Below, one piece after another: positions 28,636 to 39,203 of a stretch of 39,203 nt of DNA. Numbering within the stretch: position 1 is the first letter of the stretch; every line of letters starts with the position of its first letter. The stretch is taken from assembly GCA_026388515.1 (NCBI GenBank), contig JAPLJO010000074.1:1-39203 (forward strand). Reading direction: 5' to 3'. The position numbers and the translations under genes are program-made. The notes under the pieces were generated by a model. That model saw only the letters and a program-made list of their open reading frames with translations. It ran no database searches and was not told the DNA's origin. Source of the DNA: Deltaproteobacteria bacterium (GTDB lineage Bacteria > Desulfobacterota > Syntrophia > Syntrophales > UBA2210).

Positions 28636-28703
28636 GAAACCGCGGTGACGCGGACACTGCGGATGCTACATATCGTATGCAGCGTGCCGCTAAGGAGATT
28701 CCC

Positions 28704-30506
28704 GTGGACGGGCATATTTCCCGTGATGCCGTTGACGAAATACGAAGCAGGGTCAACATTGTGGATCTCGTATCCGAACATGTAACCCTGAAGAAGGCCG
28801 GAAGAAACTTCGTCGGACTCTGCCCGTTTCACAAGGAGAAGACTCCTTCTTTCACGGTGAACGCGGACAAGCAGATTTTTTACTGCTTCGGCTGCCATGA
28901 GGGGGGGAATGCGATTTCCTTCGTCATGAAAATAAACAATATGACGTTCCCCGATGCGGTGACGCATCTCGCCAGGAAAATGGGCATCGCCATCCAGGTC
29001 AGGGAACCTTCGCCGAAAGAGCGGAAGGAGGCGGGCGAGCGGGAGAAGCTGCTGCGGATCAACCGGATGGCGATGGAGTTCTTTTCCAAGACGCTTGCCT
29101 CTTCGCGGGGTGAAACGGCACGGGCCTACCTGCGGAAGCGGGGAATCGATGAGGCGGTGCAGGAGAAATTTCACCTTGGATATGCCGTGGACGAGTGGCG
29201 CGAACTCAAGCGGTTCTTTGAAGACCGCAAAGCGCCCCTTCCGCTGGTGGAAAAGGCGGGCTTCCTGGTCAGAAAAGACAACGGCGACTATTACGACCGG
29301 TTTCGCGGAAGAATCATGTTCCCCATCAGCGATTTGAACGGCAACGTGATTGCCTTCGGCGGGAGGGTGCTCGGGGACGGAGAGCCGAAATACATGAATT
29401 CACCGGAAACGCCCGTCTATACCAAGGGAAGGACGCTTTTCGGCCTTTATGAGACCAGGGATGATATACGGAAAAAAGACAGCGTCGTCATTGTCGAAGG
29501 TTATTTTGATTTCCTCGCCCTGTGGATTGCAGGGGCAAAACACGTCGTCGCCTCCCTCGGCACCGCCCTCACGAGGGACCAAGTTGAGCTTTTAAAGCGG
29601 TTCACGAGAAATGTCGTGCTTATCTTTGATCCCGATGAGGCCGGAAGAAGCGCCACGGAGCGCGGCCTCCAGCTCTTTCTCGAAGAAAAAATGCACTCGC
29701 GCATCGTGATACTGCCGGGAGGCTGTGATCCGGCCGATTATGCGGCGAAATTCGGCGCTGAAAAAGTGGGAGAAGTCATTGATCGGTCCGACTCGATGGT
29801 GGATTATTATATTGACCACGTCATAGGAAAAAAGGACACGCTTGAGGAACATGCCGATACGGTGAGGAGCGCGGTCTCCTTCATTGCGGGCATCCGCGAC
29901 CCCGTGGAGAGGAATCTCTTTGTGAGAAGGGTCTCGGAGCGGCTTGGCATTGACGAGGGTCTGATAAAAAATGAAATCGCCTCGGCGCCGGGGAAAAGCA
30001 GGGGGCCGGCACCGGTCCGGGATGACCGTCCCCGGAAGCGGGCGGGCACCGTCGATGCGGTGGAACTGACGCTTCTCTGCCTGATGGCCGAACGTCCCGA
30101 AAAGATTCCCCTCGTGGCGGAGGAACACATACTTTCCTTTTTCATGGACCCGGAGCTCGCCAGGCTGGGACGTGTGCTCGTGGAAGAAAAGCCCGAGGTC
30201 TCGGAATTTGTGAGCGCCCTGCCCGAGGGAGAAGTGAAGGAGAAGCTGCTCGCCCTCATGGTGGACGGGGCGGTACCCGGCGACGACCTCATTGACAGGG
30301 TGTTCAGTGATACGATAAAGCGGATACGGGAGAAATGGTTCAAGATGAAGCACCGGATGCTGAAGACGGAGATTCAGAAAGCACAGGAGGCGGGGGATAC
30401 GGAGCGCTGCACCACGCTTCTCCGTGAAAAGGAATCACTGCTGAAAGAAGCACGGAAGGCACTGCAGGCGGGTGCCGCCTCAGGCAATGCGCAAGGAGAT
30501 GCGTAA
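28704..30506 (+). CDS. dnaG: DNA primase
   Basis: A 600-residue DnaG. The N-terminal CHC2 zinc motif is Cys40-x2-His43...Cys61-x2-Cys64 ([24 protein letters not shown]). The RNA-polymerase domain has [18 protein letters not shown], and the TOPRIM site shows VIVEGYFD (Glu near 264) and [10 protein letters not shown]. The C-terminal ~150 residues form the less conserved helicase-binding region. It makes primers at the replication fork. I chose the GTG at 28704 because AAGGAG lies six bases upstream; an in-frame ATG at 28677 has no ribosome site. The stop codon overlaps the rpoD start by one base. Confidence 0.95.
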
Positions 30507-32260
30507 TGAAAAAAATAATCCATTCCGATGAAGTAAAAAAACTGATTTTACTGGGGGAGGAAAAGGGGTTCCTGACCTTCGATGATATCAACGACATGCT
30601 GCCGTCGGACGTACTGTTAGACCAGATCGATGATATCATGATGCTCTTCGGGGAGAAGAATATCGATATCATCGATGCCGAAAAGGACGACAAGACCGCG
30701 ACCCATAAGGTAGCCGAGGAGGTGGATGACCTGAAGGAAGCAGATGCACAGCTTCTGTCCATCTCGACACTCGGGAAAACCAGCGACCCCGTGAAGATGT
30801 ATCTTCGGGAAATGGGGCTCGTCTCGCTTCTCTCCAGGGAAGAGGAGGTGGAGATAGCGAAAAAGATTGAGGAAGGCGAGAAGAGGATCATGGATACGCT
30901 TTTCAGCCTCCACTATTTCATACATGAAGTTGTCGAAATGGGCGCGCGCCTGAAAAAGGATGAACTGAAAATCAAGGCGATCATCGACAACATAGAGGAC
31001 GAGAGCGGTTTCGTGGAGGAGGATACTCAGCGGCAGCGGGTGCAGACCCTCATCGATCAGGTGACCAGGCTCTACGGGAGAAACTGCCGGATCGAGACCG
31101 CATTGAAAGAGGGGCGCCTCAATGACGGCAAGGTAAGTCGCCACCGAAGGGAATTGCAGATCAACGCGAAGAAAATAATAGAGCTCTGCTGCGAAATAAG
31201 GCTGAGCAAACGGCGCATCAACAGGATGGTCTCGGAGCTGAAAGATGCCGCCGAACGCGTCAGGAAGCTGGAGCGGAAAATCAACACAGCCAGGGACAAA
31301 ACAGGGGTAACCCTCAGCACGCTGGAAACCCTCTTTACCCTGAAGAAGAGTAAGCCTCGTGAAGCAAAGGCGTTTGCGAAAAAAAACAAGGTAAAAATTC
31401 CCTTCGAGAAACTGAAGGAAACGGAAAAGGCGATACGGGATTCAAAGGCGGAGATGAGAAAAATCACCTCCCTGTATTGTATGTCGAAAGATAACATTAA
31501 AATCAAAGTGGCGGCCATTACCTCCGGGGAAATTGAGGCGAACGACGCCAAACAAAAACTCATCCAGGCAAACCTGCGGCTCGTCGTCAGCATTGCAAAA
31601 AAGTACACGAACCGCGGACTGCAGTTTCTTGACCTTATCCAGGAGGGCAATATCGGCCTCATGAAGGCCGTGGAAAAATTCGAGTATCAGCGGGGGTACA
31701 AGTTTTCCACCTACGCGACATGGTGGATCCGCCAGGCGATCACCCGTGCCATCGCGGACCAGGCGCGCACCATCCGCATACCCGTTCACATGATAGAAAC
31801 CATCAACAAGCTGATACGGACATCGCGGTACCTGGTGCAGGAGCTCGGCAGGGAGCCGAATTCGGCGGAGATCGCCGAAAAAATGGAATTTCCCCTCGAC
31901 AAGGTACGGAAGGTGTTGAAAATCGCCAAGGAGCCCATATCGCTGGAGACCCCCATTGGTGAAGAGGAAGACAGCTCGCTGGGCGACTTCATCGAGGACA
32001 AGAAAATCATGTCCCCCTCGGACGCGACGATGAGCATGGACCTGGCGAAACAGACGAGGAAGATACTCTCCACCCTCACGGCCCGGGAGGAAAAGGTCCT
32101 GAGAATGAGGTTCGGCATCAGCGAAAGAATGGATTTCGATACCACGGTGGATGATGACAGCGTACACACCGTCGAGCGGGCCAAGCAGATTGAGCAGAAC
32201 GTCCTCAAGCAGATGCGGCAGTCATCACGGCGAAGGGAGATAAAAAGCGGCACGAAGTAG
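30506..32260 (+). CDS. rpoD: Primary-type sigma-70 factor with divergent region 4.2
   Basis: A 584-residue group-1-type sigma factor. Region 1.1 is at the N-terminus ([25 protein letters not shown]), region 1.2 at [29 protein letters not shown], a non-conserved domain follows, and region 2 is intact ([58 protein letters not shown]), as are region 3 and region 4.1 ([15 protein letters not shown]). Region 4.2 is unusual: where HTLEEVG...VTRERIRQIEAKAL is expected, the sequence is [20 protein letters not shown] (544-563), with a changed first helix and no arginine at the position of E. coli Arg584. Other frames do not restore the consensus, so this is not a simple frameshift. It is cotranscribed with dnaG; the ribosome site AAGGAG is inside dnaG. 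Confidence 0.93.
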
Positions 32261-32587
32261 CGTGCAGTAAACGATACCCGGCCCGGGAATCATTGTCGGT
32301 TTATGGTCAGTGCCACCCACAACTAAATGAAAGATTAATCACGAGCATTATCTATTACTACTTCAAATCTTTGTCTCGTAAATATCCATCCGAAATCAAG
32401 TTCAAGATTAACAAACTCAAGGTAAAATGGTTCATATAAATCACTTTTGTAGGGGGCTCTAAATCAATAGGAGGGATTATGGGTAACTGAAGACCCCGTT
32501 TTTAGGCAATTCATATTACTCATAATTATCCCCCCTCACACAAAATAAAACTTTCTAGTGCGTGATTGAGTTTCTATTGCAAAATCT
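32261..32587. other. AT-rich intergenic gap after rpoD (327 bp)
   Basis: No gene or tRNA was found. A small CCCGG-C-CCGGG palindrome sits at 32277-32287 and could be part of the rpoD 3' end. The composition changes to AT-rich about here. An imperfect long hairpin at 32469-32536 is listed separately. Confidence 0.5.
32469..32536. repeat. Imperfect long hairpin
   Basis: The left arm AGGAGGGATTATGGGTAA (32469-32486) pairs imperfectly with the right arm at 32516-32536 (TTACTCATAAT, then TATCCCCCCT), with small bulges and a G-T pair. The loop is about 29 nt. No function can be assigned; it lies just beyond the 3' end of the broken AIPR gene. Confidence 0.4.
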
Positions 32588-33514
32588 TTACTCAACTAAT
32601 TTGCACTTTTTATAGAATTCTGCTGGCTCTAATAAATCGATATCATCATCAATCTTATTTTTAAGATTTTTATAAGCCTCGATTCTTAAAAAGAAATTCC
32701 TTGGATTGAAAAGTTCATTATTCCTATCCGCTTCATTTTTTGCCCTGAACACTTCATATCGTATTGCTGAGTTGCATCGGTTGAATAGGGCTTCTGAAAA
32801 AGATTCTACACTAGGGATTATCACTCTTAAATTTTCTATAGTTAGAGCATTATTATATGCTTTACTTATAATATATCCTGCGAGAGCTAATAGAGTTGTA
32901 TCAGCATGTCCTAAATATTCCTTTATCAGAGCATCATTTCCACTTGGATTTTCTCCTAAGTTCTTGATTACCTCCTCAGTGTGATTCGCAAATCTTTGTG
33001 ACAGAACAAATGGAAGAAATAATTCTTCAGCATAACGATTTCCGGGGAATACAAAGTTGTAAAGTCCCTGAGTACTCAAATCCCAGATCAACTTAGGACT
33101 AGACTTTGCTTCTATCGGTTTACCATTAAAAGCCAGATACGCTTTAGCTGCTTCAACATTTGATATTCTTCTGTAAGTTCTACAACCAGTTATTAGAAAT
33201 CCTCTTTTTTGTTCGGTTGTGAGAGAGTCCCATTCACCTTCTTTGCAGTCGTAAAAATACGGAATTTCCCAATGAATAAATTTGAGTTGAAGTTCTTTCT
33301 GTATAGGATCGTTTGAGCGAAGAGTTCGTTCGCTAACTTTGGTCTGTGAATTTGTATATGTGGCAATTTTTCCTTTCAAGTCTTCGTCTGACGTAGCGAT
33401 TATTCGTACGAGAAAATTTGTTTCAGAAGAGCATCTATGTACCGTTGGGCGATTCAGTATTGATACTGTCTGGCATCCATTCACAATTTGTGGGTGGTAT
33501 ATATACGCATCTCT
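32588..33514 (-). pseudogene. 5'-truncated AIPR family (abortive infection phage resistance) gene
   Basis: The frame encodes the C-terminal part of an AIPR-domain protein. It opens with HPQIVNGCQTVSIL, the conserved AIPR block, then FLVRIIATSDEDLKGKIATYTNSQTKV and SERTLRSNDPIQKELQ. Family members are usually about 550-700 residues with a sizeable region before this block; here the frame upstream of HPQIVNG runs only about six more codons to a TGA at 33515-33517, so the N-terminal half is missing. AIPR proteins are tied to phage defence and are often found beside restriction-modification genes, none of which are visible. A short internal GTG start at 33484 would give 298 residues, but truncation is more likely. 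The gene is AT-rich, unlike the core genes to the left. Confidence 0.75.
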
Positions 33515-33516
33515 TC

Positions 33517-33795
33517 ATGGTCAATAAGAAGAAGTGTAATTCTTGCGGTATCTGTATCAAGAAATGTCCGACAAAAAATATAACCATGAATAAGAAAGAT
33601 TTCCCCAAATGGGGGAGAAATTGCATATCATGCTGGTACTGCGAAATGAGTTGCCCGACGGAAGCAATTACGTCTACTGTTGATTGGCCTATCATGATCC
33701 CATTCATGAAATACAATATCAGCAAAGCACTCTCTACTCTCTCAATTGATAAAACCAAAGTGACATTCAGTAAGGGAAAAGTGAAGCGGATTTAA
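33517..33795 (+). pseudogene. Di-cluster 4Fe-4S ferredoxin, probably truncated from a flavodoxin-ferredoxin fusion (EFR1-like)
   Basis: The 92-residue frame from an ATG at 33517 has two 4Fe-4S motifs: CNSCGICIKKCP (near residue 7) and CISCWYCEMSCP (near residue 36), then a tail with DWPIMIPFMKYNISKAL. This layout fits the C-terminal part of EFR1-family proteins, which normally carry an N-terminal flavodoxin domain of about 160 residues; here that region is replaced by the antisense of the AIPR fragment. No ribosome site precedes the ATG. It could still be expressed as a small ferredoxin, so 'pseudogene' is an inference. It lies head-to-head with the truncated AIPR gene. Confidence 0.6.
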
Positions 33796-33933
33796 TTGGT
33801 AAATGGAAGACTTCTGCTGTCACTGAACGATAACGACTCGCGTAAACGAAATAAAGTTGGCTTCCACGAAATTTCAGAAAAAAGCCGTCGGGGATATTAA
33901 TCATTTGATTTATAAGAGGAAGCAGGAGAAACT

Positions 33934-35064
33934 ATGAAGAAGGAAACCATATGCGTCCAGAGCGGTACATACCATGATCTCGCCACCAGGGGCGTTAACA
34001 CTCCAATATTCACATCATCATCATTTGAGTACCTAGAACGGGAAGACTGCCCCTATCCGCGCTATTTCAATACGCCGAACCAGGAAGCCGTTGTTCGTAA
34101 GCTTTGCGCGCTTGAGGGCGCCGAGGATGGCGTGCTTTTCAGCTCCGGCATGGCAGCAATTAGCACTGCCATATTGGCCTGTGCCGGGGCGACAGATCAC
34201 GTCGTCATGCTGGACGCACTCTATGGTGGCACGCATGCCTTTGCCACGGATACCTTTGATCGGTTTGGCATTCGGTACTCGTTCGTAGCCACAAATGCGG
34301 ATGCGGTAGCGCAGGCGCTGACGCCAGGCACTAAAGCGATTGTGATCGAGTCTCCTACAAATCCCCTGTTAAGAATTATCGACATACGCCGTGTGGCGGA
34401 AGTCGCCAAGCGCCGAGGGATTACAACGATCTTCGATAACACATTCGCGACCCCCATCAACCAAACGCCTTTGGCGTTGGGGATTGACGTGGTTGTCCAC
34501 AGCGGAACCAAGTATATGGGTGGTCATAGCGATCTCTGCTGCGGAGTTGTGCTCACATCAAAGGAACGCGCAGGTCAAATCCGGGCGATGGCCCGACACT
34601 TGGGTGGCAGCTTGAACGCAACTACCTGCTATCTACTCGAACGGAGTCTAAAGACCCTCGCTCTGCGAGTGGAGCGTCAGACATGCAACGCGCTTCGCAT
34701 TGCGGAGTTTCTTGCCGGACATAATGCAGTCAGAAACGTCAACTATCCTGGATTGCCGGGGTTCATAGGACACAAGATTGCTAGCACGCAGATGACAGGT
34801 TTTGGGGCCATGCTGTCCTTCGAATTGAACCAGGGAGTACGGCAGGCAGACTTTCTGCACCGGTTGCAGATCATTCGCCCCGCTGTCAGTCTGGGCGGGG
34901 TAGAGACTCTTATCTGCGCTCCAGCCGAAACATCACATGCAAAGATTTCGGCGGATGAACGGCGCAGAATTGGAGTTACAGATGATCTCCTTCGATTGTC
35001 TGTGGGAATCGAGAATGTCGATGACCTGATTAATGATCTGAAGCAAGCATTGAATGACAAATAA
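33934..35064 (+). CDS. Trans-sulfuration PLP enzyme (cystathionine gamma-synthase/lyase or methionine gamma-lyase family)
   Basis: A 376-residue fold-type I PLP enzyme of the Cys/Met metabolism family. Key features: SSGMAAISTAIL (70-81), DALYGGTHAF (94-103), Asp168 in TIFDNTFATP, and the PLP lysine Lys193 in VVHSGTKYMGGHSD. The C-terminal region has LGGVETLICAPAETSHA and LLRLSVGIENVDDL. Family members cleave or form C-S bonds (cystathionine synthesis or breakdown, H2S or methanethiol release); sequence alone does not decide which, so no symbol is given. The ATG at 33934 follows CAGGAGAAACT. It appears single-gene, intact, and more GC-rich than the adjoining gaps. Confidence 0.9.
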   Translation: MKKETICVQSGTYHDLATRGVNTPIFTSSSFEYLEREDCPYPRYFNTPNQEAVVRKLCALEGAEDGVLFSSGMAAISTAILACAGATDHVVMLDALYGGTHAFATDTFDRFGIRYSFVATNADAVAQALTPGTKAIVIESPTNPLLRIIDIRRVAEVAKRRGITTIFDNTFATPINQTPLALGIDVVVHSGTKYMGGHSDLCCGVVLTSKERAGQIRAMARHLGGSLNATTCYLLERSLKTLALRVERQTCNALRIAEFLAGHNAVRNVNYPGLPGFIGHKIASTQMTGFGAMLSFELNQGVRQADFLHRLQIIRPAVSLGGVETLICAPAETSHAKISADERRRIGVTDDLLRLSVGIENVDDLINDLKQALNDK

Positions 35065-35470
35065 GAATCGAACAACAGAGTGGTAGATATCTGCCGTTGT
35101 TGCGCGTCCGTTGAAACCCACACCCTACGATACCAAGTATTTGATTGGAGGTTCACCCGTAGTAGATTTGTAACGGTAATTTTTAGATATATCATATTCA
35201 TTTTAATGCTTCTTAGGTGGACGAAGCATTCCTGTACTATGCAAATTGTAAACCGCGACAAAAATGCAGGACTTTAATCCGTAATAAACATAATTCACAT
35301 CCGACAACAAACATCTACATCATACCTTAAATTTTGTGGCCAATATTGCCTTGACATACAAGACCAAGCATCGTGGTGTTGGGGATTTAGAAAGCGACTC
35401 TAAGTCCCCTTTTTTCATTTGGGTAATTTTGGCCGTCCGCAACGCAATCGGTCATCCCCCAAATGTCCTC
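35065..35470. other. Intergenic gap with an orphan terminator (406 bp)
   Basis: No credible protein gene. A possible promoter is TTGATT (35141-35146) with TAGATT (35163-35168), 16 bp apart. Another TTGACA at 35351-35356 has no good -10. A strong + strand terminator lies at 35381-35415. Confidence 0.5.
35381..35415 (+). terminator. Rho-independent terminator in the gap after the PLP enzyme
   Basis: GGGGATTTAGA (35381-35391), a 7-nt loop, TCTAAGTCCCC (35399-35409) and six T's. The stem is 11 bp with one G-T pair. It lies 317 bp after the PLP-enzyme stop, much farther than usual, so it may end a long 3' UTR or a small RNA. Confidence 0.85.
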
Positions 35471-36112
35471 TTATCGGGTGAAATGCGCTCCCATTTCAAA
35501 GGCCTTTGCGCAGTCGAGGGGAAATACTTCCCGCCGCCTCTGGGCCTTCTTCTCAGGGTCGAAGCGGGGGGCGAATACCTTTGAATAGTCTTCAAACTGG
35601 TAGGTGTCATAACTGCACAATGACTCCGAAGCCCCGAATATTCTTGCCAGGATCATCTCATTCCAGCTGATGTGGTGATCGAAGCCCCGTTCTTTCGCCA
35701 TTTTCTCGGTCGCACCCAGGGTGTAGATGAAGCCGGTCGAAATCTTTCTCGGGAAGAGCGACCCCGGTGGGTCGGTATAGGGAGAAAAGGGGAAGAACAA
35801 GCGCTCCATAAAGGACCTCATCTCCCCTGTAACGGTTCCGTAATAGATCGGGGATCCGAGGATAAGAGCCTGGACATCCAGAACCGCCTTCAGGAGAGGG
35901 GTCAGGTCGTCTTTCACGACACACCTGCCATAGCTCGGGCCGTCTATCGTCTTGCAAGCGAAGCAGCTCACACACCCTTTGAAATCGAGGTTATAGAGAT
36001 GCACCAGTTCTGTTTCCGCGCCCTTGGACGCCGCACCATCGAGCGCTCTTTCGAGCAGTGTCGCCGTATTCCATTTCTTTCTCGGACTTCCGTTAACTGC
36101 AATCACTTTCAT
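35471..36112 (-). CDS. Flavodoxin-fold NAD(P)H-dependent FMN reductase / iron-sulfur flavoprotein-like
   Basis: A 213-residue flavodoxin-like protein. The FMN phosphate loop is GSPRKKWNTATLL (8-20). A cysteine set follows (Cys47, Cys50, Cys53, Cys64, in GCVSCFACK and YGRC), then the DDLTPLL segment, and LILGSPIYYGTVTGEMRSFMERL is a family hallmark. Such proteins reduce quinones, flavins or metals, and in anaerobes some carry a 4Fe-4S cluster on similarly spaced cysteines. The substrate is unknown. The ATG at 36112 has GGGAGG about eight bases upstream. The gene stands alone on the - strand, divergent from the aldo/keto reductase. Confidence 0.88.
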   Translation of the reverse strand: MKVIAVNGSPRKKWNTATLLERALDGAASKGAETELVHLYNLDFKGCVSCFACKTIDGPSYGRCVVKDDLTPLLKAVLDVQALILGSPIYYGTVTGEMRSFMERLFFPFSPYTDPPGSLFPRKISTGFIYTLGATEKMAKERGFDHHISWNEMILARIFGASESLCSYDTYQFEDYSKVFAPRFDPEKKAQRRREVFPLDCAKAFEMGAHFTR

Positions 36113-36437
36113 GTGTCATACCTCCCTTGTTTAATTGCCTCTTCATGTACCTCTGATTGAGAAGAGGGCCGCCGCCAGGGCCCTTTCTGCGTCTAGTATT
36201 ACACATACAAAGACAGGGCAACAGGCTAATAACGCAACACGAAAGAAAAAATTTGTACCATTACTAGAGGCTATATGAAAATACATTTTAAACAGCTTGC
36301 CTTTGTATTGCATATACTGGACAATTAATTATTGCAGTTACAGTAAAGTCGGCAGTTATTAAATACAGCCGGATAATTTGTCAAAATCGTTTATAACTAC
36401 CCAAAAAAGACAGCATTCAACTTAAAAGAGTGGACCC
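36113..36437. other. Divergent intergenic region (325 bp)
   Basis: This is the shared upstream region of the FMN flavoprotein (-) and the aldo/keto reductase (+). A hairpin at 36160-36188 pairs AGAAGAGGGCC with GGCCCTTTCT with one bulge and would lie in the leader of the flavoprotein mRNA. AT-rich sequence at 36240-36400 probably holds promoters; TGGACA with TACAGT at about 36316-36342 is one weak candidate. The heptamer GCAGTTA occurs twice between about 36333 and 36358. Nothing else could be assigned. Confidence 0.45.
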
Positions 36438-37487
36438 ATGGAAAAGATAAGACTGGGCAAAACAAATATAATGGTATCACAGTTGGGTTTCGGGAGCATT
36501 CCCATCCAGAGGGACTCGGAAGAAGAGGCGGTGGCCATTGTAAAGAGATGTCTAGAACTGGGCGTCACCTTTCTCGATACCGCCAATGCCTATACCACCA
36601 GCGAGGAGCGGATAGGAAAGGCGATTGTGGGTAAACGCGAAGGGCTCGTCATTGCCACGAAGACCACTGCCCGGAACCGAGAGGATGTGGAAAAACATAT
36701 CAATTTGAGCCTTAAGCGCCTCGGCGTCGAATACATCGACCTTTACCAGTTCCACAATGTGAGTGACTCCAACGCAGTGAAGACCGTCCTTGATCCCAAT
36801 GGACCAATGGCTGTGGTTAGAGAGGCCCAGAAATCAGGGCGGATCAGACATATCGGCGTCACCTCGCACCAGATAGAAATAGCCAAAGAGGCCGTAAAAT
36901 CCGGCCACTTCGAGACCGTTATGTTTCCTTTCAACGTTGTCACCTCTGAGGCTGCCGAAGACCTTCTGCCCCTATGCAGAGAATACGACGTCGGTTTCAT
37001 CGCTATGAAGCCCCTAGCTGGAGGCATGCTGGAGAACGTCGCCATTGCATTTAAATATCTGATGCAATTTCCGGATTTGCTGCTCATTCCGGGCATAGAA
37101 AAGATCCATGAGATCGATGAGATTGTGACAGTGATGAAAGAGACAAGCGCGATGACGGAATCTGAACAGCAGGAGATCCAAAGACTAAGGGAGCAGTTGA
37201 GCACCAAGTTCTGCCGGCGATGCGACTATTGCCAGCCCTGCGATATGGGAATACCCATATCGGTCGTGATGCAGAGCAGCAGTTTCGTAAAGCGGTTGCC
37301 GCCTGAGAGCACCTTCTCCGGCTGGATTGCCGCCGCAATGGAGAAGGCAGCTGAATGCACCCAATGCGGCGATTGCGAAGAACGATGTCCCTTTGATCTC
37401 CCCATCAGGGAAATGATTGTCGAGTATGTGCATTCCTACGGGGAGGCGAAAAAGAGGTACCAGGAACGGGTTAATACCACCCACTAA
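36438..37487 (+). CDS. Aldo/keto reductase with C-terminal 4Fe-4S ferredoxin domain
   Basis: A 349-residue fusion. The N-terminal TIM barrel has the AKR tetrad: Asp47 and Tyr52 in FLDTANAYTTSEERIG, Lys75 in IATKTTARN and His106 in LYQFHNV. The tail carries two cysteine clusters, CRRCDYCQPC and CTQCGDCEERCPF, as in the ferredoxin-like aldo/keto reductases common in anaerobes. These probably pass electrons between NAD(P)H or ferredoxin and a carbonyl substrate; the substrate is unknown. The ATG at 36438 has a weak ribosome site. An MBL-fold hydrolase gene starts 37 bp downstream, so the two likely form an operon. Confidence 0.92.
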   Translation: MEKIRLGKTNIMVSQLGFGSIPIQRDSEEEAVAIVKRCLELGVTFLDTANAYTTSEERIGKAIVGKREGLVIATKTTARNREDVEKHINLSLKRLGVEYIDLYQFHNVSDSNAVKTVLDPNGPMAVVREAQKSGRIRHIGVTSHQIEIAKEAVKSGHFETVMFPFNVVTSEAAEDLLPLCREYDVGFIAMKPLAGGMLENVAIAFKYLMQFPDLLLIPGIEKIHEIDEIVTVMKETSAMTESEQQEIQRLREQLSTKFCRRCDYCQPCDMGIPISVVMQSSSFVKRLPPESTFSGWIAAAMEKAAECTQCGDCEERCPFDLPIREMIVEYVHSYGEAKKRYQERVNTTH

Positions 37488-37524
37488 ACCTATAGATTCC
37501 AGTCGAACATGGTAGGAGGTAATG

Positions 37525-38340
37525 ATGCAAAAGATTACCAATAATATTTACACCGAAACCGGGTTTCGAGGGTGCAATCCCGGCTTCGTAATCACTACGG
37601 AAGGGGTAGTGATGATTGATACTCCTCAGCTGCCAGCGGACGCAATAGGGTGGCGCAATGAGATCTCGAAACATGGTTCTGTTCGCTACCTGATAAATAC
37701 CGAGCCTCACGGCGATCATTTCACCGGGAATTACTATTTCGAGGGCACAGTAGTGGCTCATGAGGGAACCAGAGACGTAATTCTAGCAGCCTCAGTGAAA
37801 CAACTAAGGGAACGACTCGGGCAGACAGCGCCTGCGAGCCTTTCCCTTATGGAGGGATTCAGCTATCGCCCGCCCACCATTACCCTTTCCCAGCGACTGA
37901 CTCTCTACGTAGGCGATCACACCTTCCAGCTCATTAACCTCCCTGGGCACACCCCTTACCAGGTGGCAGTTTATATCCCCGAGGAGAGGGTAGTCTTTAC
38001 CTCAGACAATGTATTTGGCAAAGTACAGGCTTGGCTTCACCAAGCCCTCCCTTATGAGTGGTTAAATTCATTGAAGCGAATTCAGGAGCTGAAGGCCGAT
38101 ATCCTGGTTCCAGGGCACGGCAGCATTTGTAACCAAAGTTACATCCCTGAAATGAGCGCTTTTATTCAGGCTTGGATAGATGCAGTCGCTGCGGCCATTA
38201 ACCAAGGGATGAGTCTGGAGGAGGCTCAAAACAAGGTTTCACTCCTCGATCGCTATCCTATGGAGAAAGGGAGCGAAGCCATGGCACAAGAGGTGCAGCG
38301 GATGAATGTAGCACGCCTGTATGAAGTGCTTAAAAAGTAG
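37525..38340 (+). CDS. MBL-fold metallo-hydrolase (variant ExHxDH metal motif)
   Basis: A 271-residue metallo-beta-lactamase-fold protein. The first metal motif reads INTEPHGDHFTGNYYF, that is, E-x-H-x-D-H with glutamate where the usual first histidine stands; LPGHTPYQ, FTSDNVF and LVPGHGSIC supply the later metal positions. The glutamate form recurs in some MBL-fold subgroups and does not by itself mean loss of function. The substrate is unknown. I chose the ATG at 37525, five bases after TAGGAGG; an adjacent ATG at 37522 is also possible. It lies 37 bp after the aldo/keto reductase and 401 bp before the broken TetR gene, which may once have regulated the pair (inference). Confidence 0.88.
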   Translation: MQKITNNIYTETGFRGCNPGFVITTEGVVMIDTPQLPADAIGWRNEISKHGSVRYLINTEPHGDHFTGNYYFEGTVVAHEGTRDVILAASVKQLRERLGQTAPASLSLMEGFSYRPPTITLSQRLTLYVGDHTFQLINLPGHTPYQVAVYIPEERVVFTSDNVFGKVQAWLHQALPYEWLNSLKRIQELKADILVPGHGSICNQSYIPEMSAFIQAWIDAVAAAINQGMSLEEAQNKVSLLDRYPMEKGSEAMAQEVQRMNVARLYEVLKK

Positions 38341-38741
38341 AAAATAAACTACCGTGCTTTGGGGGGCAGGTCACAGAAAAACCATCACGCTTTGGAGCAA
38401 GCTGCTTCTTCCTGAACTAAATAGAATTTGGCACAGCGTATTAGCTTCAAGTTTTTCCTGTAATCGTGTAACTGACAATTTCTATAAAGTGCACACTTTC
38501 AAGTAATCGTCAGTCTTTCACTTCGAATACCGACACGGAAGCGCATCAATAATTATAACTAGTCAACTGCCGAAAAATAACTTGCAAGGAGGCGCTACGA
38601 GAAAAAACAATCTGGCTTTACCTTATAAAATCATTATGCGAAAGAATCAGAAGCAAGCGTCGCTCCGCTCCGACAACGTTACCGATTTCATCAGAATAAC
38701 CATGTAAACGAGTAGTAATTTTATAGGGGGAAAGATTTGTT
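38341..38741. other. AT-rich gap before the TetR-like pseudogene (401 bp)
   Basis: No convincing gene. A frame with upstream AAGGAGG (about 38585-38591) runs to a stop near 38707 but has no normal start codon near that site; its late ATG would give about 23 residues. GCTTTGG occurs twice near 38355-38395. No terminator or clear promoter was recognised. Confidence 0.4.
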
Positions 38742-39203
38742 ATGGGAAAGAAACGAATCACAAAAGGAGAACGATATTCTCAGATAATAGATTGTGCGAC
38801 GAAGGTATTTGCCAAAAAAGGATATTCTGGTGCAACCACAAAGAACATCAGCGAGGCCGCTGGTATCTCTGAAAAAAATAATCTATGTTCATTCATTTCA
38901 AAAACAAGCAAGACCTGTTTTTGAAGTGCTTTAATAGAGTTGAAGAAGAGATGCGATTAAACTTCAGAAGAATTATACGAGAGTATAAAGGAAACCCATT
39001 AGCCATTTTAGAACAAATTGGTCTATTCCTTTTCGATTATATAAACAAAAAAATACGCTTTCAGCCTCATAGGCTTACATGCGAGAGAAGTAAATAACAA
39101 GGTGATAAAAGAAGAATACAAAAAATCGATAACCATGTACATTGACACTCTTGAAATAACCGTTAAAAAGGTCATAGAAAAAGGCATGATGCCTCCCTCT
39201 CTC
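38742..39203 (+). pseudogene. TetR/AcrR family transcriptional regulator, frameshifted, runs off the right edge
   Basis: The N-terminal DNA-binding domain is clear: RYSQIIDCATKVFAKKGYSGATTKNISEAAGISEK from the ATG at 38742. It then breaks. The expected IYVHFKNKQDLF continues in another frame from about 38885 (HFKNKQDLFLKCFNRVEEEMRLN), and after FQPHRL the match returns to the first frame near 39078 (HAREVNNKVIKEEYKKSITMYID). Three small changes explain this: one extra A in the A-run near 38873, a 4-base tandem duplication (ATTCATTC) near 38890, and one extra A near 39077. The net change is +6. The C-terminus lies outside the window. Either the gene is decaying or the assembly has errors. A ribosome site AGGGGG precedes the ATG. 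Confidence 0.82.

Follow-up and report, generated by a model that had tools for sequence, protein, structure and literature searches.

Head-to-head fragments of an AIPR/AbiU-type gene and an EFR1-like gene downstream of rpoD: a possible insertion of foreign DNA into a probably acquired gene

In the window (the whole stretch of 39,203 nucleotides analysed here, which belongs to contig C174 of the assembly), two gene fragments abut head to head within positions ~33494-33511: (i) the C-terminal part of an AIPR/AbiU-type gene; and (ii) the C-terminal part of an EFR1-like flavodoxin-ferredoxin gene. On one side of them lies the chromosomal backbone with dnaG and rpoD, and on the other side a compositionally foreign arm (Table 1).

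Table 1. Features around the junction, with positions in the window
Feature	Position	Strand	Remarks
dnaG (primase)	28677..30506	+	Chromosomal backbone; Pfam; upstream of rpoD in relatives
rpoD (sigma-70)	30506..32260	+	Last conserved backbone gene; Pfam
AIPR/AbiU-type C-terminal part	32588..33514	-	Open frame including stop codon; homology from ~33502 downwards; ~290-300 N-terminal residues absent
Breakpoint zone	33494..33511		AIPR homology stops, EFR1 homology starts
Compositionally foreign arm	33505..39203		Runs to contig end; EFR1 remnant, PLP enzyme, FMN reductase, aldo/keto reductase, metallo-beta-lactamase-fold protein, broken TetR gene
EFR1-like flavodoxin-ferredoxin C-terminal part	33511..33795	+	Retains the tail and both 4Fe-4S motifs; lacks the flavodoxin part
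Cys/Met-metabolism PLP-dependent enzyme	33934..35064	+	Pfam; 77% identity with two genomes from a different family of the order

The minus-strand frame is open from the stop codon at 33515-33517 down to 32588, a run of 305 codons with a chance probability near 5e-11 at the local base composition, and its first residues are RDAYIYHPQIVNGCQT. The match to the Pfam family AIPR (PF10592) begins at residue 6 of the frame and position 60 of the 308-position profile (78.3 bits vs. a cut-off of 25), and the PADLOC AbiU profile matches from position 297 of 537. According to an alignment with seven full-length homologues, the window copy starts a few residues ahead of the QIVNG motif. Out of 61 loci with AIPR homologues, 60 gave a match, three of which were cut by the locus edge; in all the 57 uncut AIPR/AbiU homologues, 300-399 residues lie upstream of the point where the window copy starts. 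This N-terminal region of about 300 residues, which is joined to the AIPR core, is absent in the window. Judged by its sequence, the fragment is most likely the remnant of an AIPR/AbiU-type phage-defence gene.

Matches to AIPR were found in three out of 149 relatives, the own genome included, and at E 1e-8 the own genome is the only one with a match among 395 genomes of the phylum; no other AIPR core was found in it. No confirmed AIPR relative was found in genome_contigs, nor in viral_contigs with a single-sequence query; an alignment query returned 54 viral loci. The matches in plasmids (five records) and phages (three) are all distant, and PDB sequences gave only marginal matches, to unrelated proteins. 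The trinucleotide bias of the fragment is atypical (correlations of 0.37 and 0.45 with the backbone) and, in consequence, the AIPR fragment itself was probably acquired.

The plus-strand frame, with an ATG at 33517, is open over 94 codons (chance probability near 1e-3 at the local base composition). Its best NCBIfam match is EFR1 (NF038196), over profile positions 177-230 of 242 and with 59.9 bits, below the cut-off of 75. The cysteines of its two 4Fe-4S motifs are common to the orthologues, and Fer4 is recognised in two stretches. Three full-length EFR1 orthologues have the same C-terminal tail, each with about 190 more N-terminal residues: (i) L014, from the same order; (ii) L098, from a Syntrophaceae MAG (L098 and L013 are the same place); and (iii) L099, from an Olavius-associated delta-proteobacterium. 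The flavodoxin domain was recognised in L014 and L099, both of which were scanned, and in L098 by alignment. An EFR1 N-half of the window's subfamily was not found elsewhere in the own genome; a flavodoxin on contig C93 was considered as the missing half and rejected, being a complete 169-aa protein. Over 89 EFR1 sites, the window has 7 private differences, next to 9 in the intact L099, 5 in L014 and 3 in L098, which fits a remnant without excess change, as expected of a recent break. Neither fragment looks old, as would be the case for a recent event or an artefact. Separately, in Smithella sp. SCADC (L100, 4001-4244) the EFR1 orthologue appears shrunk by internal deletions as compared with the ~96% identical region of G092.

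It could be argued that both short frames are complete working genes, i.e. a ferredoxin starting at the ATG mentioned above and a short AIPR starting at a GTG at 33484, given that neither frame is interrupted and the two 4Fe-4S motifs are preserved. Nevertheless, this is hardly credible: no short AIPR exists among the 57 uncut homologues, no short EFR1 among the three full-length orthologues with the same tail, and the promoter-like sites (5 found vs. 5.7 expected) show no excess over chance. A preliminary description of this DNA had regarded both genes as 5'-truncated and not as natural short forms, and the full-length AIPR and EFR1 homologues agree with it.

The same description placed the breakpoint within about 20 bp, as is indeed the case, since the two homologies switch within the breakpoint zone. 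It was also right in that, on the minus strand, AIPR homology starts abruptly at QIVNG next to a stop codon at 33515. Regarding the ferredoxin, for which it gave a start at 33517-33530 without a flavodoxin domain, the flavodoxin part is truly absent and the coordinates fit, but similarity to the EFR1 orthologues (LF.V..KKC) begins already at 33511 and perhaps at ~33502; by its score, the extra stretch up to 33502 ranks within the highest 4.6% of 855 control positions. A second copy of the break was not found in the own genome, where the sole other match to a 141-bp junction query corresponds to query bases 1-22, off the break. Likewise, a 31-bp junction sequence has no exact match in viral_contigs, and no DNA similar to the region was found in plasmids. 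Both sides of the junction are AT-rich. The best inverted pair beside it measures 10 bp (32313-32322 and 33488-33497), which by our estimate is no more than chance would give in 1.8 kb. Integration at a tRNA was considered and rejected: neither a tRNA nor an Rfam match turned up in the window, and no tRNA in the 18 rpoD loci of relatives.

The surroundings of rpoD in relatives provide a reference for this locus. Among 18 family relatives, 17 have xseA (exonuclease VII large subunit; Pfam) after rpoD, and in 9 of the 18 a ridA-like gene on the minus strand is located between both. The exception to the rpoD-xseA adjacency among the 18 rpoD loci (L048-L065) is L061 (G003). Neither ridA nor xseA follows rpoD in the window. 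While the own rpoD is on C174, the own ridA, xseA, ispA and dxs are on another contig, C82, in matching order, with ispA and dxs arranged as in the two relatives compared at length. With rpoD at the left, the layout reads as follows: in C174, rpoD and the AIPR C-half (-); and in the reversed C82, a candidate AIPR N-half (-), ridA (-) and xseA (+). We infer that C174 and C82 are chromosomal neighbours. No sequence joining the two contigs was found, and no repeat of at least 11 bp common to the rpoD-AIPR and AIPR-ridA gaps was found either.

The candidate N-half comes from a search of the own genome with a profile of the AIPR N-terminus, which pointed to one weak place, C82:24952-25086 (E 0.018). 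The frame at this place has an ATG preceded by AGGAGG and comprises ~150 codons, followed by two strong hairpins (folding z -5.0) just before the contig end. Its recognition is weak and covers ~60 residues: the PADLOC AbiU profile matches it at positions 20-82 (E 0.0017), and a comparison with the N-terminal profile by hhalign yields P 6.6e-5 and a probability of 64. Pfam did not call it AIPR (the best family was Mrr_cat_2, E 0.14), and tblastn against plasmids gave no match. Codon-position GC is similar in the two AIPR halves (0.47/0.32/0.23 and 0.44/0.35/0.27) and unlike that of the EFR1 remnant (0.25/0.42/0.50). In its orientation, the C82 half would form one minus-strand gene with the C-half of the window, and it adjoins ridA/xseA. 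Since place, orientation, uniqueness and codon-position GC all fit, the two halves would belong to one and the same AIPR gene between rpoD and ridA. Searches of the assembly did not recover AIPR codons ~150-290 and, hence, this is not a clean insertion. As for the end of C82 (L189, 10324-10438), the first of its two adjacent hairpins is also present on C101 (L039, 47-62), and they resemble an interspersed repeat or one end of a small insertion element; a 29-aa frame running off the C82 edge has no Pfam or plasmid match.

The presence of an AIPR-like N-half beside ridA/xseA has consequences for the origin of the junction. The preliminary description held that both genes had lost their N-termini at the same point, and suggested a deletion, an inversion or an insertion-excision. 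Both genes are indeed truncated at this point. However, a loss of the AIPR 5' half jointly with that of EFR1 is unlikely, as the former is probably still in the genome, and insertion or replacement inside AIPR is favoured over a deletion between divergent genes. A single deletion between complete divergent genes (AIPR on the minus strand, EFR1 on the plus strand), removing both 5' halves and the intervening DNA, offers the simplest geometry for truncating both 5' ends in one step, and the genome indeed lacks an EFR1 N-half of the window's subfamily, the C93 match being a complete flavodoxin. Nevertheless, as the AIPR 5' half seems to survive, such a deletion is improbable: the AIPR/AbiU-like N-half, in the expected place and orientation beside ridA-xseA, would have to be unrelated. 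Even less probable is an inversion with one breakpoint in AIPR and the other in EFR1. It would place the two 3' parts head to head, as seen here, but it predicts a reciprocal AIPR-N/EFR1-N junction, whereas the AIPR-like N-half of C82 runs into the hairpin repeat and no EFR1 N-half of that subfamily is found in the genome.

The arm beyond the junction differs in composition from the backbone. The trinucleotide bias of 33934-39203 correlates with that of 1-32260 at 0.79, as compared with 0.909-0.978 for 18 overlapping backbone pieces of equal size. Five smaller arm pieces (0.8-1.4 kb) reach 0.36-0.74, and the lowest value for 1.1-kb pieces of the backbone is 0.723, which one arm piece, that of the aldo/keto reductase, exceeds. 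The shift in composition is not located at the junction itself but at the end of rpoD, 1.2 kb before it. The arm products that were scanned gave no match to a transposase or integrase family, and synteny with the arm was checked, and not found, in genomes with homologues of EFR1 or of the PLP enzyme. At the contig end, a TetR-type regulator gene (38742-39203, +) is split into two shifted frames with two frameshifts, which reflect either a pseudogene or sequence errors.

A foreign arm could also be the product of a chimeric contig, which would switch at 33494-33511 from a true AIPR gene to DNA from elsewhere in the genome or from another organism. This is the main rival explanation, it would look the same as an insertion, and it is rather unlikely on balance. 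In its favour, the genome is a draft of 175 contigs with 4.84% estimated contamination (and 100% estimated completeness), the arm past the junction has a foreign composition, AIPR lacks its middle, and the two fragments show no other damage. On the other hand, assembly joins usually need a shared repeat and the junction is unrepeated in the genome; besides, the composition already shifts before the junction, both sides of which are AT-rich.

The explanation towards which we somewhat lean is that an acquired AIPR gene between rpoD and ridA was split by at least 5.7 kb of foreign DNA, whose edge lies inside an EFR1-like gene. As suggested by synteny, the interval between rpoD and ridA-xseA would first have received an AIPR/AbiU-type defence gene on the minus strand. 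Afterwards, at least 5.7 kb of foreign DNA would have entered this gene, possibly by illegitimate recombination, and the AIPR middle (~codons 150-290) would have been replaced or displaced, so that it is now either lost or beyond the contig ends. The edge of the incoming piece may have fallen inside an EFR1-like gene and, in consequence, only the ferredoxin end of the latter would have been carried in. The head-to-head junction would then be one edge of the insertion, and the far edge would correspond to the end of C82, with the AIPR N-half followed by the hairpin repeat where the contig stops. The AIPR and EFR1 remnants are probably non-functional. A reversible split of AIPR by an excisable element, whose excision would restore the gene and phage defence in part of the population, has a very slim chance of being true.

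Regarding annotation, the two frames at the junction should be entered as gene fragments, and not as an intact defence gene and an intact ferredoxin gene. In addition, C174 and C82 can be suggested as neighbouring contigs of the assembly, and the locus suggests an uptake of foreign DNA into the rpoD-xseA gap in the lineage of the window; should the join be due to misassembly, it would instead point to a wrong contig end. This is most likely an ordinary kind of genome scar, for which no new mechanism is needed.

Compared with known families, the window copy of EFR1 (NF038196; flavodoxin plus two [4Fe-4S]) shares its tail with L014, L098 and L099, but lacks the flavodoxin part and remains under the family cut-off. 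Similarly, the AIPR copy (PF10592; PADLOC AbiU; abortive-infection phage resistance) shares the family core with the QIVNG.Q and TNSQT motifs, but begins at the QIVNG motif, without the ~300 residues found in 57/57 uncut homologues. It is a general phenomenon that defence genes in genomic islands are disrupted by mobile or foreign DNA. Unlike such cases, the products scanned here revealed no recombinase or transposase family at either of the edges; like them, the window locus shows a different resemblance, in that it combines a broken accessory defence gene, a backbone boundary and foreign composition.
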